From contig JAABTS010000025.1 of the NCBI GenBank assembly GCA_011389735.1, positions 1-48,708 of the forward strand: a stretch of DNA of 48,708 bases, given 5' to 3'. Each line of letters begins with the position of its first letter. The first letter of the stretch is position 1. The position numbers and the translations under genes were made by a program. The stretch comes from Desulfobacteraceae bacterium (lineage in GTDB: Bacteria; Desulfobacterota; Desulfobacteria; Desulfobacterales; JAABTS01). The notes beneath the pieces are model-generated. The model saw nothing but the letters and a program-made list of their open reading frames with translations. It was not told the DNA's origin and made no database searches. Below are positions 42,144 through 48,708 of the stretch, piece after piece.

Positions 42144-43436
42144 ATGAGGGATGAAGTGACGACGATTTCCATGCGCCCCGCCGAAATCTGTTCCATCAGG
42201 CCGCCGACTGAAAATTTCAGTCTCACGTTCCGGCTTACGAGGAATTGTTACTGGAACAAATGCAAGTTTTGTCCGGTATATAAATTCGGATCAAAATTTT
42301 CGAAGCGGCCCATGCAATCGGTCAGGCGGGATATTCAAAATTTGAAAATCCTGAACGACCTTCTTGACGGCGCCGGTATCCGGGCGGGCGGTCTCGACGA
42401 ACACGGGTATCATAAGATCAAATCCTTGATCGAAGAAATTGAGGATTCGTTTCCGGATAGGGATAGCGAGGATCGACATCATACGACTGATCGGGAGGCC
42501 TTTCCGGAAGAGCTATCCTGGTTTTTTCAGTGGTTCAAGGAAACGCCGACTATTGAAGACAACATGAACCACCTGATCCAATGGCGGTTGAACAGCGCCT
42601 TCACCTGTTTTCTAGGGGACGCTGATAATCTGGTGCTCAAACCGGACTTTATCGGCGAAGTGATCGAGGCTGTCCGGGAGGCTTTCCCCACGATTCAACG
42701 GTTTACCATCTATGGAAGAACCCGCACCGCCGCGGAAATCCGTACTTTACCGGAGCTTTCCGAATACCGGCGGGTAGGGCTGGACCGAGTCCATTTCGGC
42801 GTTGAAAGCGGTTCGGATACGGTCCTGAAGTTCATTCAAAAGGGCGTCTCCAAACAGCAGCAAATCGACGGCCTGATAAAAACTCGGGAATCGGGCCTTT
42901 CCTGTTCGGTTTATGTGATGCCGGGCCTCGGAGGAACGGATTGGTCTCAAGAACACGCCCGGGAAACCGCTGACGTGATTTCGCAGGCTTCCCCGGACTA
43001 TGTCAGGCTGAGGACGTTATGCGTTTTTCCGGGAACTCCGCTCTGGAACGCCCAAAAAAACGGTGATTTCACCGAATCGGACGATACGACGACAGTTCGC
43101 GAAATTCGGGATATGATCGAACAGATCGATACGGAAACGGAACTTTTGAGCGACAGCGCATCGAATTTGCTGCCCATTAACGGTGTTTTGCCCCGAGACC
43201 GGGACGCCATGATTCTCATAGCGGACCAATACCTCGATTTACCCGAAAGGGAAAAACGCGTGTTCGCCCTTGAAAGCCGGATCAATGCGTTCATGGGGCA
43301 GTACGGAGGCCTTACGCAAGATATATACCGGTCTATCGCGCCCTACGTCAAAGACGGAACCGTGGATTTTACGGATATGCCGGATAATGAAATCGAGAAA
43401 TCGACCGTGTTCGTTCGATCCAAATTAATGCCTTGA
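42144..43436 (+). CDS. Radical SAM protein with a CX4CX2C cluster motif
   Basis: The protein has 430 residues. The cluster cysteines lie in NCYWNKCKFC: Cys35, Cys40 and Cys43. The spacing is CX4CX2C, not the usual CX3CX2C. Further radical SAM elements follow, such as FTIYGRTRT, the helix with RVHFGVESGSDTVLKFIQKG and YVMPGLGGTDW, which resemble the HemN-like and YgiQ-like groups. The C-terminal region is helical with no obvious second cluster. A GTG at 42156 with GAGGG upstream is a better-supported start than the ATG at 42144. No substrate can be inferred; a family A repeat lies immediately upstream. Confidence 0.8.
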   Translation: MRDEVTTISMRPAEICSIRPPTENFSLTFRLTRNCYWNKCKFCPVYKFGSKFSKRPMQSVRRDIQNLKILNDLLDGAGIRAGGLDEHGYHKIKSLIEEIEDSFPDRDSEDRHHTTDREAFPEELSWFFQWFKETPTIEDNMNHLIQWRLNSAFTCFLGDADNLVLKPDFIGEVIEAVREAFPTIQRFTIYGRTRTAAEIRTLPELSEYRRVGLDRVHFGVESGSDTVLKFIQKGVSKQQQIDGLIKTRESGLSCSVYVMPGLGGTDWSQEHARETADVISQASPDYVRLRTLCVFPGTPLWNAQKNGDFTESDDTTTVREIRDMIEQIDTETELLSDSASNLLPINGVLPRDRDAMILIADQYLDLPEREKRVFALESRINAFMGQYGGLTQDIYRSIAPYVKDGTVDFTDMPDNEIEKSTVFVRSKLMP

Positions 43437-43721: not shown

Positions 43722-44798
43722 ATGGAATCGATACTAAAGCTATACGCAGGAAAAACCGCGCTTTCAATTATTCGGGACGAAGGGCTCCGGCCCGAGCGGA
43801 TCAAAGTTCTTGCCGGAGCCGCAGGCGGGCCTAAATGGCTGATCCTGAGCCGTCTGGATCGTTTTATAATTCCGGAATTTCTGAAAGAACACTCCGGCCC
43901 GGTGTTTTTACTGGGGGCCAGTATCGGCGCCTGGCGATTCGCAGCTCTCTCCCAAAAAGAACCGACGAAGGCCATTGAAAAATTCGAAAACGCATATATC
44001 AATCAACGGTATTCCAGCGATCCCCCGCCGTCGGAAGTCAGCGGACAAAGCCGCCGGATCATGGAATCGTATCTGGAAGACGCCGCCATTGAAGATATCC
44101 TGACCCATCCGGTCATGCGGCTCAATATTCTGGCCGTGCGGTCTCGAGGAATCCTGGCCGATGACCGGAAACGATATCTAATCCCCGGTTTTGGAGCCGC
44201 TGCGGTAATGAACGCCTTCAGTCGGTCGTTTCTATCTCTCTTTTTTAAACGCACCCTGTTTGTTCATCCTGAGACGCCTGAAGGGTTTCCCGCCGGAGAT
44301 CGTTTTAAAACCGAAAGGGTGCCGCTGACGAAAGACAATTTCCGGAAGGCCCTTCTATCGTCCGGATCAATCCCTCTGGTTATGGAAGGCGTGACCAATA
44401 TCAGCGGCGCTCCGCCGGGCGCATACCGGGACGGCGGTATTTTGGACTACCATCTGGATATCCCGTATTTAAAAGACGACGACGGCGTCGTCTTGTTTCC
44501 CCACTATACCGACCGGATTATCCCCGGATGGTTCGATAAAATACACTCCCGGCGCAAACCGAACCCTGTGAACATGGATCGGGTCATTATGGCGGCCCCG
44601 TCCAAAGATTTCGTGAAAAAACTGCCCTACGGAAAAATCGCCGACAGAAAGGATTTCTATAAATTCAAAGGCGATGACAAAGGACGGATCGATTATTGGA
44701 ATTGCGTGGCTGCCGAATCGAAGCGTTTGAAAGACGCCTTTGCGGACGCTGTGCTGTCAGGCCGGATACGCGACATGATCGAACCGACGCCGTTCTGA
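43722..44798 (+). CDS. Patatin-like phospholipase
   Basis: The protein has 358 residues. The nucleophile motif GASIGA carries Ser67, preceded by AGAAGGPKW near 31 (the oxyanion-hole region). The second catalytic residue is the Asp in YRDGGI near residue 235. The Ser-Asp dyad is complete, so it should be an active lipid acyl hydrolase. No signal peptide or membrane helix is visible, so it is probably cytosolic. It converges with the ferredoxin-domain gene, whose end lies only eight bases beyond its stop. A family B repeat sits in the upstream region. Confidence 0.85.
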   Translation: MESILKLYAGKTALSIIRDEGLRPERIKVLAGAAGGPKWLILSRLDRFIIPEFLKEHSGPVFLLGASIGAWRFAALSQKEPTKAIEKFENAYINQRYSSDPPPSEVSGQSRRIMESYLEDAAIEDILTHPVMRLNILAVRSRGILADDRKRYLIPGFGAAAVMNAFSRSFLSLFFKRTLFVHPETPEGFPAGDRFKTERVPLTKDNFRKALLSSGSIPLVMEGVTNISGAPPGAYRDGGILDYHLDIPYLKDDDGVVLFPHYTDRIIPGWFDKIHSRRKPNPVNMDRVIMAAPSKDFVKKLPYGKIADRKDFYKFKGDDKGRIDYWNCVAAESKRLKDAFADAVLSGRIRDMIEPTPF

Positions 44799-46615: not shown

Positions 46616-46666
46616 ATGCAACATACTTCTACAAGCGCGGAAACGACAAGCAAGCGAAAAGCATGA
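46616..46666 (+). CDS. Possible 16-residue leader frame coupled to the PqqD-like gene
   Basis: ATG at 46616 follows GAAAGGAAAGAAG, a good ribosome binding site, and opens a 16-codon frame (MQHTSTSAETTSKRKA). Its TGA overlaps the ATG of the PqqD-like gene (ATGA at 46663-46666). The PqqD-like gene itself lacks a good site. This fits translational coupling by a leader peptide, but it could also be chance. Confidence 0.35.
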   Translation: MQHTSTSAETTSKRKA

Positions 46667-46965
46667 GTAGAATAACAACCGACCGGGATAAGTGCTTCGT
46701 CAAAGATTCATCCGTGGTATTGAGGAAAATTGCGGATGAAACAATTTTGGTACCTATCCGCAAGAAAGCCGCCGATGTCGAGAGCATATACGTCTTGAAC
46801 GAGGTCGCCGGGCGCATCTGGGAACTTGTCGATGGTGAAAAACACGTCCAAGAGATAAGGGATATTATCGTCAAAGAATTCGATGTAAGTTCAGAGGAAG
46901 CGGAGGCTGATCTGGCGGAATACCTCGAACAGTTGGAGGCGGCAGGCGCCGTCAGGGAGGTGTGA
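46663..46965 (+). CDS. PqqD-like RiPP recognition protein
   Basis: The protein has 100 residues and a complete PqqD fold. A beta-rich N-terminal part (DKCFVKDSSVVLRKIADETILVPI) is followed by VYVLNEVAGRIWELVDGEKHVQEI and a C-terminal helix with a LAEYLEQLEAAGAV segment. Such proteins bind the leader of a precursor peptide and deliver it to a radical SAM enzyme. The radical SAM/SPASM gene starts one base after its stop, with GGGAGG in the end of this gene. The frame is open upstream as far as 46447, but that part does not look coding. Its partner precursor is at 48149. Confidence 0.85.
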   Translation: MSRITTDRDKCFVKDSSVVLRKIADETILVPIRKKAADVESIYVLNEVAGRIWELVDGEKHVQEIRDIIVKEFDVSSEEAEADLAEYLEQLEAAGAVREV

Positions 46966-46966
46966 G

Positions 46967-48091
46967 ATGGATTGTCCCCACATTCCAGAACTCAACTATG
47001 CCGAATTTAGCCAACGGCTTCATAAGAAGGTGGTCGCCCGGCGTATTCCCATCACCGGCAGCATCGAGGCCACGGCCCGCTGTAACCTGCACTGCGCCCA
47101 CTGCTTCATCAACCTTCCCCCCGGAGATCGGCGAGCGCGGATGCAAGAATTGACCGGCCAGGAATGGCGCTCGCTGGTCGACCAAATTGTGGACGAGGGC
47201 TGCCTGTGGCTACTGCTCACCGGAGGCGAGCCATTCCTGCGGCCGGATTTTCTCGACATCTATACCTATGCCAGGACTAAAGGCCTGCTGATCACCCTTT
47301 TCAGCAATGGTACGCTTCTCACCCCCGGCATCGCCGATCACCTGGCCGAATGGCCCCCTTTTTCCATCGAGATTACCCTCTACGGCCGCACGCAAAAGAC
47401 GTACGAGGGAGTCACAGGCGTCCCGGGCTCCTACGCACTCTGCATGCGAGGCATCGAATTGATGCTGGAGCGTAAGCTGCCGCTCAAGCTCAAAACAATG
47501 GTTCTGACCCTGAACCGGCATGAATTGGCGAATATGAAGGCGTTCGCCGAAGGCCTGGGGCTATCCTTCCACTACGATCCCATGCTTAATTCACGCGCAG
47601 ACGGCGACCGGTCGCCGGCCGCGTTCCGCCTGTCGCCGGAAGATGTTGTAGCTCTCGATCTGGCGGATGCGAAACGGCTCAAGGAGTGGGACGAGTTCTG
47701 TGAAAAGTTCCTGGGGCCGCAGGCCGACTCTGACTTACTGTACCAGTGCGGCGCCGGGCTGAACACCTTTCACGTCGACCCGTATGGGGGGATGAGCGCC
47801 TGCCTGGTGGCCCGCCGGCCTGCTTACGACCTGCGCCAGGGGACTTTCCACGAGGGCTGGCATAATTTTTTGCCTCAGGTTCGGGCGCAAAAAAGAACGC
47901 GAGAGACCCCTTGCCGGCGCTGCGACCTGATTTCGCTCTGCGGCCAGTGCCCCGGCTGGGCCCAGATGGAGTACGGCGATCAGGAGGAGCCGGTCCCCTA
48001 CCTTTGCCGGACTGCTCACCTGCGGGCAAAGGCGTTTGGATTGAACGAAAGAAACAAACCAACAAGACGGTGTCAAAGCCGCCATCACTGA
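46967..48091 (+). CDS. Radical SAM/SPASM peptide-modifying enzyme
   Basis: The protein has 374 residues. The radical SAM cluster motif Cys39-x3-Cys43-x2-Cys46 (CNLHCAHCF) is followed by LLTGGEPFLRPDF. The C-terminal SPASM part has CGAGLNTFHVDPYGGMSAC, then CRRCDLISLCGQCPGWA and a final CRTAHLR, enough cysteines for two auxiliary [4Fe-4S] clusters. Enzymes of this type install crosslinks or epimerise residues in ribosomal peptides. It is directly linked to the PqqD-like gene and to a precursor about 60 bases downstream. Base composition is visibly more GC-rich than the flanking DNA. The last 15 residues look unlike the family end and may be an extension. Confidence 0.9.
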   Translation: MDCPHIPELNYAEFSQRLHKKVVARRIPITGSIEATARCNLHCAHCFINLPPGDRRARMQELTGQEWRSLVDQIVDEGCLWLLLTGGEPFLRPDFLDIYTYARTKGLLITLFSNGTLLTPGIADHLAEWPPFSIEITLYGRTQKTYEGVTGVPGSYALCMRGIELMLERKLPLKLKTMVLTLNRHELANMKAFAEGLGLSFHYDPMLNSRADGDRSPAAFRLSPEDVVALDLADAKRLKEWDEFCEKFLGPQADSDLLYQCGAGLNTFHVDPYGGMSACLVARRPAYDLRQGTFHEGWHNFLPQVRAQKRTRETPCRRCDLISLCGQCPGWAQMEYGDQEEPVPYLCRTAHLRAKAFGLNERNKPTRRCQSRHH

Positions 48092-48148
48092 GAACCTTGC
48101 TGAAAAAGACGGGCGTCGGATCAAACAAAAGATAATAGGAGGTTGAAG

Positions 48149-48337
48149 ATGAGTAGTAAAGAAACCAGGGTGGAGCGGCGGCTATATCTAAAACCGCAGT
48201 TAAAAGTCGTGCGGCTGGTGGCCGGTGAGGCGGTGCTGCAGTACTGCAAGTGGGTAGGTGTTATAGGTCCCTATGGACAGGGAGTTGGTAGTTGTCAGAA
48301 TCCAGGGGGTAATATCTGTCGTGATCTCGGAAGTTAA
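48149..48337 (+). CDS. Candidate RiPP precursor peptide
   Basis: The ATG at 48149 lies six bases after AGGAGG. The 62-residue peptide has a basic N-terminal leader with LYLKPQLKVVRLVAGEAVLQ, a pattern shared by precursors found next to PqqD and radical SAM genes. A C-terminal core starts at about residue 33 with Cys33, Cys49 and Cys57. The core is rich in Gly (FVGVIGPYGQGVGS-like) and ends CRDLGS. There is no similarity to folded proteins. Modification sites are likely at the cysteines, but the kind of crosslink is unknown. The gene follows the radical SAM enzyme and precedes a family C repeat. Confidence 0.78.
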   Translation: MSSKETRVERRLYLKPQLKVVRLVAGEAVLQYCKWVGVIGPYGQGVGSCQNPGGNICRDLGS

Positions 48338-48339
48338 AG

Positions 48340-48486
48340 GGGCTTGATTTCATTTCCGGCCAATATTTTTTCACCGCAAAGGCGCAAAAAACGCAAAGCA
48401 TTTAATTTATATCACCTTTGCGAACTCTGCGTCCCTGCGGTGAGTCTCTTCAACTTGCGGTTATGGCCGAAGTTGGAACCGGGCCC
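48340..48486. repeat. Family C element with CACCGC palindrome inside
   Basis: The left end GGGCTTGATTTCATTTCCGG and the right end GGCCGAAGTTGGAACCGGGC are decayed inverted copies. Inside are TCACCGCAAAGGCGCAAAAA and CGTCCCTGCGGTGA with CCTTTGCGAACTCTGCG, a palindromic repeat type that is widespread in environmental bacteria. It begins three bases after the precursor stop codon. Confidence 0.75.
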
Positions 48487-48540
48487 AGTCAAAGCGTATC
48501 GGATGCAACCAGGATGAAGCCGCCAAATGGACATGCCCAC

Positions 48541-48708
48541 ATGCGGGTCAGGATTGCGGACCTTGTTTTTGCCGTTACTGCCGGCCCATCGGCCGGGACA
48601 CCTCGGTTGGAGCAGGGTTATAAGGGTTTTCTCAGCGATGACGAGCCCAATGTGACTATCCAGGTACACCACAACGGCCTGCCCGTCATTCCCCTGCGCG
48701 ATGACGAC
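48541..48708 (+). CDS. Start of an HPr kinase-like RiPP-cluster gene (cut by the right edge)
   Basis: From the ATG at 48541 the frame is open to the window end (56 codons). An in-frame ATG at 48514 is also possible, and neither has a clear ribosome binding site. The beginning MRVRIADLVFAV followed by GYKGFLSDDEPNVTIQV resembles the N-terminal domain of HPr kinase-like (PEPCK-fold) proteins found in many PqqD/radical SAM RiPP clusters. The catalytic domain would lie beyond the edge, so the assignment rests on about 40 residues. It follows the precursor after a repeat of about 150 bases. Confidence 0.5.
   Translation, partial: MRVRIADLVFAVTAGPSAGTPRLEQGYKGFLSDDEPNVTIQVHHNGLPVIPLRDDD

Follow-up and report, generated by a model that had tools for sequence, protein, structure and literature searches.

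The last two kb of contig JAABTS010000025.1 from a Desulfobacteraceae bacterium (assembly GCA_011389735.1) carry a locus for a ribosomally synthesized and post-translationally modified peptide (RiPP). The window analysed here is that whole contig (48,708 bases; genome size 6.5 Mb), and at its end genes for a PqqD-type RiPP recognition element (RRE), a radical S-adenosylmethionine (SAM)/SPASM enzyme, a 62-residue precursor and the start of an HprK-like kinase follow one another in that order on the + strand (Table 1). The locus probably belongs to a broad, unnamed family of RiPPs whose Cys-containing core is modified by the radical SAM enzyme, whose C-terminal Ser is phosphorylated and whose leader is removed. 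The same four genes in the same order had been called from the sequence alone, and their coordinates, the matches to PF05402 and PF04055 and the likeness of the kinase fragment to its counterpart in a related locus (L038) confirm that call; the sequence-only reading had missed two features that point to the mechanism, the Ser at which nearly all relatives end and the archaeal-type signal peptidase encoded downstream in them.

The precursor has homologs that adjoin homologous enzymes and thus is not a chance open reading frame. Searching with a profile from eight peptides, then with a leader-only profile and then by eye, we found 138 relatives (135 non-redundant), spread over at least five phyla and adjacent to members of the same enzyme family. 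Such co-occurrence was the test that had been named for a RiPP-type locus, and the claim passed it; the precursor matches no Pfam or NCBIfam family. It is scarcely credible that the frame encodes a small folded protein or arose as a non-coding accident, since nothing was found in favor of this and the homologs have variable cores, a conserved leader and a placement beside the enzyme.

The relatives were gathered through the enzyme, so a radical SAM gene is present in each locus by construction, and because of shared descent the locus counts exceed the counts of independent events. The window enzyme was matched at E 1e-30 or better in 59 of the 389 sampled genomes of its class. A wider search with a 15-row enzyme profile, at E 1e-75 or better, gave matches in 20 of 395 genomes of its own phylum and in 12 of 251, 20 of 178, 34 of 193 and 32 of 247 genomes in the phyla of, respectively, an Anaerolineales record (Chloroflexota), a Nitrospirae record, an Omnitrophota record and an Aminicenantes record (the last presumably Acidobacteriota in GTDB). 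The fetched stretches comprise 153 distinct loci with the enzyme, and many weaker matches lie outside this set; viral contigs gave four pattern matches, among which no enzyme relative was confirmed. The precursor count covers loci L033-L086 without L079 (on the same contig as L052), L206-L225 and L286-L365. It excludes L226-L285, which are short automatic copies; all those places except G1173, G1136 and G1143 are counted as longer stretches. A precursor had to match the leader profile at >10 bits, on the enzyme's strand and in a frame of <260 amino acids, and frames left open by a contig end were dropped (L064, L344). Those accepted on visual reading had to have the leader motif and at least two Cys, whatever their last residue; almost all lie between enzyme and kinase.

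Ser is the last residue in 120 of the 135 peptides, followed by Thr (nine, so that 129 end in one or the other), Ile (two) and Gly, Gln, Tyr and Met (one each), against a background of 7.9% Ser ends among 1248 open frames of at least 250 codons on either strand of the same loci. The leader profile was itself seeded from peptides first identified by a profile of the whole peptide, tail included, and therefore the loci from L206 on, which were collected by enzyme and leader alone, were counted separately; 78 of their 89 peptides end in Ser and eight in Thr. By group, Ser is last in 43/48 peptides of the window's own phylum, 17/17 of the Nitrospirae record's phylum, 26/28 of Omnitrophota, 22/22 of the Aminicenantes record's phylum, 7/15 of Chloroflexota (with Thr in five more) and 5/5 of the others.

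Position statistics were taken from the 118 of these 135 peptides that a motif script parsed, trimmed to their last 60 residues. Exactly three Cys occur from the first core Cys (Cys1) onward in 100 of them, over a median stretch of 27 residues, and Lys directly follows Cys1 in 96; relative to Cys1, Leu stands at -10 in 82 and Glu at -6 in 91. Ser is last in 105 and Gly precedes the last residue in 62. The core is otherwise variable, often rich in Gly, Ser, Thr or Pro, and the spacing between the Cys varies. The leaders carry a Y/WxxPx[hydrophobic] motif, which is bound by PqqD-type RREs (PMC13381572, on linear polyphosphorylated peptides, LPP; here and below this source, PMC9266682 and PMC4289311 are cited for parts of their text). 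In six loci from the Omnitrophota record's phylum (L324, L326, L327, L330, L333 and L334) the leaders resemble KF.P.ITR(V/I)KLNPEQAVL and are followed by two close Cys and long variable cores; some have two or three precursors, all ending in Ser except one short odd copy (L330, ending in Ile). Another subtype (L068, L069, L072, L082, L083 and L217-L219) has at least two radical SAM genes together with PqqD and, in several loci, a signal peptidase; its peptides are of the W.KP...PEEAVL.xCK type, and some loci have two precursors.

The window enzyme contains CX3CX2C (C39, C43 and C46) and further Cys at 261, 279, 316, 319, 325, 328 and 347, which from general knowledge of SPASM proteins we take to belong to auxiliary clusters. 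All of these are invariant across 15 aligned sequences that include the window enzyme, and the SPASM model scores 15.4 bits on it, below its cut-off of 21.5. Because SPASM enzymes carry out many reactions, radical chemistry other than Cys thioether formation could be at work (a C-C link, an epimerisation or a C-O link), with the three Cys forming disulfides or binding metal, and the variable inter-Cys spacing would suit this. We nevertheless regard it as rather doubtful, because the Cys, exactly three in most parsed peptides, are the sole strongly conserved core residues besides the Lys after Cys1 and the tail.

The rest of the gene set accompanies the precursor closely. Where at least 3 kb downstream and at least 2 kb upstream of the enzyme were available (108 loci), 97 loci have a precursor and 11 have no recognised one. 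Within the fetched stretches, the 97 include PqqD in 95, an HprK-like gene in 96 and a signal peptidase in 82, along with a C25 peptidase in 30, an NTP_transf_5 protein in 37 and an ATP-binding cassette (ABC) transporter in 24; among the 11, a signal peptidase occurs in nine and an HprK-like gene in seven (96/97 vs 7/11, Fisher p 0.0003). The most frequent arrangement runs PqqD, radical SAM, precursor, HprK-like and signal peptidase, with an upstream C25 gene in 12 loci and none in eight. All 39 C25 domains compared (including L052:2-5353 and L059:3202-5610) keep the Cys and the His of GHG, which we assume to be the catalytic pair, and the L059 protein is PorU-like, at 213 bits vs 420 for NF033707; these peptidases beside RiPP genes are candidates for processing, for anchoring or for a target. 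Two other loci of this kind lie in the window's own genome: L033 (G000:C77:4000-12570) has C25, PqqD, radical SAM, a precursor ending AGS and an HprK-like gene, and the divergent L034 (G000:C151) has an HprK-like gene, a radical SAM gene and a precursor of the WERPEL...EEAVLDGCK type ending in Ser. In L035 the HprK-like gene and the signal peptidase gene flank a gene for a PRMT-like arginine methyltransferase (L035:8467-9600), which shows a weak PqqD-like match at its C-terminus. Loci L039-L044, whose enzymes are 44-54% identical to the window's, were rejected as homologous systems, since no PqqD, precursor or HprK-like gene was recognised in them; their cassettes consist of an ABC transporter, a radical SAM gene and a signal-peptidase-like gene.

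Of 118 kinases from these loci, 117 keep both the P-loop Lys and the His that precedes the P-loop, the remaining one being unaligned, and the Asp motif is [SNCT]D[DE]R in 108. It is replaced by GED[Q/T] in four Chloroflexota kinases (L075, L078, L289 and L290), and the peptides of those four loci end in Gly, Gln, Met and Thr, none in Ser; the other 114 loci have a Ser-ending peptide in 106 cases. Run against the PDB, a profile of 15 HprK-like proteins matches HprK structures only weakly (E 7e-4), with two designed P-loop proteins ranked above them. For the L073 kinase, the predicted structure (pLDDT 89) has HPr kinase 1ko7 as its first Foldseek match, at E 6e-6 but a TM-score of just 0.25, and VIA-align gives Z 12.5 to a phosphoenolpyruvate (PEP) carboxykinase (root-mean-square deviation 4.6, 227 aligned), with PEP carboxykinases alone and no HprK chain among the best 50 rows. 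PEP carboxykinase and HprK share a P-loop fold, and the predicted fold of the kinase resembles it.

It is unlikely, in our judgment, that the terminal Ser instead serves as a tag by which the signal peptidase, the ABC transporter or the C25 peptidase recognises or exports the peptide and that the HprK-like protein is an ATPase, a sensor or a kinase of some other residue. The LPP kinase does target Ser3 and not the C-terminus (PMC13381572), and the Thr ends and six other ends also speak for a tag; but the terminal Ser persists whether the partners are C25 or ABC/NTP_transf_5, the change in the kinase motif accompanies its loss in one clade, and PadeK is a direct precedent for a kinase of such a residue (PMC9266682).

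Several observations weigh against the phosphorylated, processed peptide that we favor. Six of the 135 peptides end in neither Ser nor Thr; for two of them, in L049 (Ile end) and L215 (Tyr end), the kinase motif is the usual one. The nine Thr ends fit poorly with LppK, which did not phosphorylate a Thr variant (PMC13381572). At locus L333 the fetched stretch contains a precursor but no HprK-like gene, and the seven loci mentioned above have the kinase gene without a recognised precursor. Three of the four GED[Q/T] kinases were in a quick tree and form a single clade (support 100), so they represent one event and not four. Nor does an HprK-like kinase alone imply a terminal Ser, because the LPP kinase acts on Ser3 and the candidate peptides of SynChlorMet regions (below) end differently. 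The signal peptidase of L072 (L072:7473-7940) scores 47.5 bits with TIGR02228, below the cut-off of 51.85. In the window itself the kinase is seen solely as an N-terminal fragment, and the place of the signal peptidase is past the contig end.

The other three of the four signal peptidases tested pass TIGR02228, with 56, 62 and 70 bits. Of 78 aligned signal peptidases, some from precursor-less loci, 76 have the Ser of GxSMxP, 78 the His and 77 the Asp, which fits the Ser-His-Asp set of LppS, an enzyme that needs S29, H68 and D93 (PMC13381572).

What the analysis establishes directly is the set of genes, the family of peptides with its conserved Cys and terminal Ser, and the conservation of motif residues in kinase and peptidase; the chemistry and the phosphorylation are inferred. 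The discrete PqqD-type RRE would bind the YxKPxL leader, as its motif and known RREs suggest, and present the precursor to the radical SAM/SPASM enzyme, which would modify the core at the three conserved Cys, most likely by forming thioether links. The HprK-like kinase would phosphorylate the hydroxyl of the C-terminal Ser, to which both its near-universal conservation and PadeK point. In most relatives the archaeal-type signal peptidase would then remove the leader, as LppS does in the LPP system, perhaps right before Cys1; a cut there agrees weakly with the small -1 residues of many relatives (Gly in 41, Ala in 27 and Ser in 12 of the 118 parsed peptides), and the window's Tyr at -1 weakens the case. 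In the LPP system leader cleavage is poor without phosphorylation (PMC13381572), and therefore phosphorylation and leader removal may be coupled. Export or further tailoring could fall to the MsbA-like ABC transporter and NTP_transf_5 protein in some loci and to the C25 peptidase in others.

A fuller picture, plausible to us but somewhat short of likely, is a class with members in at least five phyla, its three-Cys core cross-linked by a radical SAM enzyme and combined with a C-terminal phosphoserine, the phosphate perhaps serving as a handle for a sugar or anchor (through NTP_transf_5) or for the PorU-like C25 peptidase, to give a surface-linked or exported peptide. If the favored explanation is correct, radical cross-linking and terminal Ser phosphorylation are joined in one widespread and poorly studied family of largely uncultured lineages, and leader removal by a signal peptidase extends from LPP peptides to radical SAM RiPPs. 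The family would also offer a direct test of site choice by HprK-like peptide kinases and a sequence rule for finding precursors (a YxKPx[hydrophobic] leader, three Cys, a terminal Ser and an HprK-like gene).

Table 1. Features of the RiPP locus at the right end of the window
Feature	Position	Strand	Basis
PqqD-type RRE, 100 aa	ATG 46663, stop 46965	+	PF05402 60.5 bits, cut-off 23.4, E 2e-16
Radical SAM/SPASM enzyme, 374 aa	46967..48091	+	PF04055 58.4 bits, cut-off 29.5
Precursor ribosome-binding site AGGAGG	48137..48142	+	sequence
Precursor peptide, 62 aa, three core Cys, C-terminal Gly-Ser	ATG 48149, stop 48337	+	sequence, homologs
Leader motif Y-L-K-P-Q-L	48185..48202	+	fits RRE-binding motif [Y/W]xxPx[L/V/I/A/F/Y] (PMC13381572)
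Cys33, first core Cys (Cys1), then Lys	48245..48247	+	sequence
Cys49 of precursor	48293..48295	+	sequence
Cys57 of precursor	48317..48319	+	sequence
Ser62, C-terminal residue, predicted phosphorylation site	48332..48334	+	Ser last in 120/135 relatives
HprK-like kinase gene, N-terminal part, 65 codons	48514..48708, ATG 48514 or later in-frame ATG	+	cut by contig end

The kinase fragment shows 34% identity to the L038 HprK-like protein across 50 aa (E 4e-7 in a search of 15 sequences) and scores 10 bits with the HprK-like family profile; it has no match in Pfam or NCBIfam, and its P-loop would fall past the contig end. A search of the window's own assembly gave just two other HprK-like genes and not the remainder of this one. 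No window protein attains the cut-off of any NCBIfam model listed for it (the list for the enzyme being the best 25 of 62). Between precursor and kinase gene, at 48371-48443, is an imperfect inverted repeat with 28-nt arms that are 75% complementary; its right arm occurs once in the window, and it may be a mobile repeat or a terminator. Farther left are an unrelated radical SAM gene (42144-43436; 46 bits with PF04055, below every NCBIfam cut-off and most similar to B12-type enzymes) and a patatin-like gene slightly below the Pfam cut-off (43722-44798).

The LPP system shares with the present family a discrete RRE, an HprK-like kinase, an archaeal-type signal peptidase and a YxxPx leader motif, and with part of its loci an NTP transferase and an MsbA-like ABC transporter (PMC13381572). 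There LppK phosphorylates Ser3 of LppA, and LppS, helped by the RRE, removes the leader, a role for a signal peptidase that was described in 2026 (PMC13381572). The RRE and (in part) the kinase are present in the window and the signal peptidase in relatives; however, an LPP system, with its linear product, would have no cross-linking enzyme, and the window has a radical SAM gene. LPP peptides are described as linear, phosphorylated at core Ser3 and mostly from Bacillota, whereas in the present family a radical SAM enzyme is added, the core has three Cys and the conserved Ser is C-terminal, and in the main text of the LPP paper "radical SAM", "rSAM" and "SPASM" have 0 occurrences (PMC13381572). 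Compared by eye, the full precursor motif YxxPxVLxHQxIxFETxxS with its core Ser3 is absent here, and its YxxPx part alone is shared.

Paeninodin-like lasso peptides share the HprK-like kinase (PadeK/PsmK), the conserved C-terminal Ser and the discrete RRE (B1) (PMC9266682). In the paeninodin precursor it is the C-terminal Ser that PadeK phosphorylates, and wherever a homologous kinase gene occurs this Ser is described as extremely conserved (PMC9266682); HPr kinase genes had been noted earlier in lasso clusters of anaerobes (PMC4289311). The pairing of such a kinase with a Ser-ending precursor is found here too, and the NTP transferase of pseudomycoidin has its parallel in the present loci. 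Lasso peptides also need a B2 peptidase and a macrolactam synthase (PMC9266682). Neither was among the chosen neighbor genes that were annotated, a selection made with no dedicated search and with the downstream part of the window's locus past the contig end. PsmN is said to add hexoses on phospho-Ser.

SynChlorMet, a computationally defined set (NCBIfam TIGR04248-TIGR04251) for which we found no description in the open PubMed Central literature beyond its NCBIfam models, combines a PqqD-like, an HprK-like and two radical SAM proteins. These are the same kinds of parts, and in seven regions around above-cut-off ScmC genes a signal peptidase (7/7), an ABC transporter (5/7) and an NTP_transf_5 protein (6/7) also occur, some by weak similarity. 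That our locus is itself a SynChlorMet cassette is quite improbable, though: it has one radical SAM gene and not two, and the models score far below their cut-offs (in the window, ScmE 76 bits vs 400, ScmF 78 vs 400 and ScmD 30 vs 100), on which grounds membership was rejected. With the window kinase gene cut by the contig end, ScmC (cut-off 125) was scored on relatives, giving 27 and 18 bits for two and 50 for L072, and 27.5 and 32.9 for the two other loci of the same genome. The candidate peptides in four true SynChlorMet regions, read by eye, end in Arg, Arg, Cys and Asn, without the terminal Ser. SynChlorMet may be a sister system.

In sactipeptides and ranthipeptides a radical SAM/SPASM enzyme acts on a Cys-containing precursor; the present family has in addition a kinase and a signal peptidase, and the window enzyme falls far below the PapB (NF047865, 47 bits vs 340) and AlbA (47 vs 850) models. 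The equivalogs of PQQ biosynthesis were likewise rejected (PqqD TIGR03859, 35 bits vs 46; PqqE TIGR02109, 63 vs 381). With an RRE-motif leader on a precursor beside a discrete RRE and a radical SAM/SPASM gene, the locus does belong to the broad kind of RRE-dependent radical SAM RiPPs. We found no description of a RiPP gene set with both a radical SAM enzyme and an HprK/HPr kinase, or these with a signal peptidase, in the open PubMed Central literature, mostly judged without full texts. The family is unnamed, but its parts have precedents, most of them being shared by the LPP, paeninodin-like lasso and SynChlorMet systems. Judged by gene content and motifs, the family is the LPP/paeninodin toolkit combined with a radical SAM enzyme, and SynChlorMet is the nearest described gene set.

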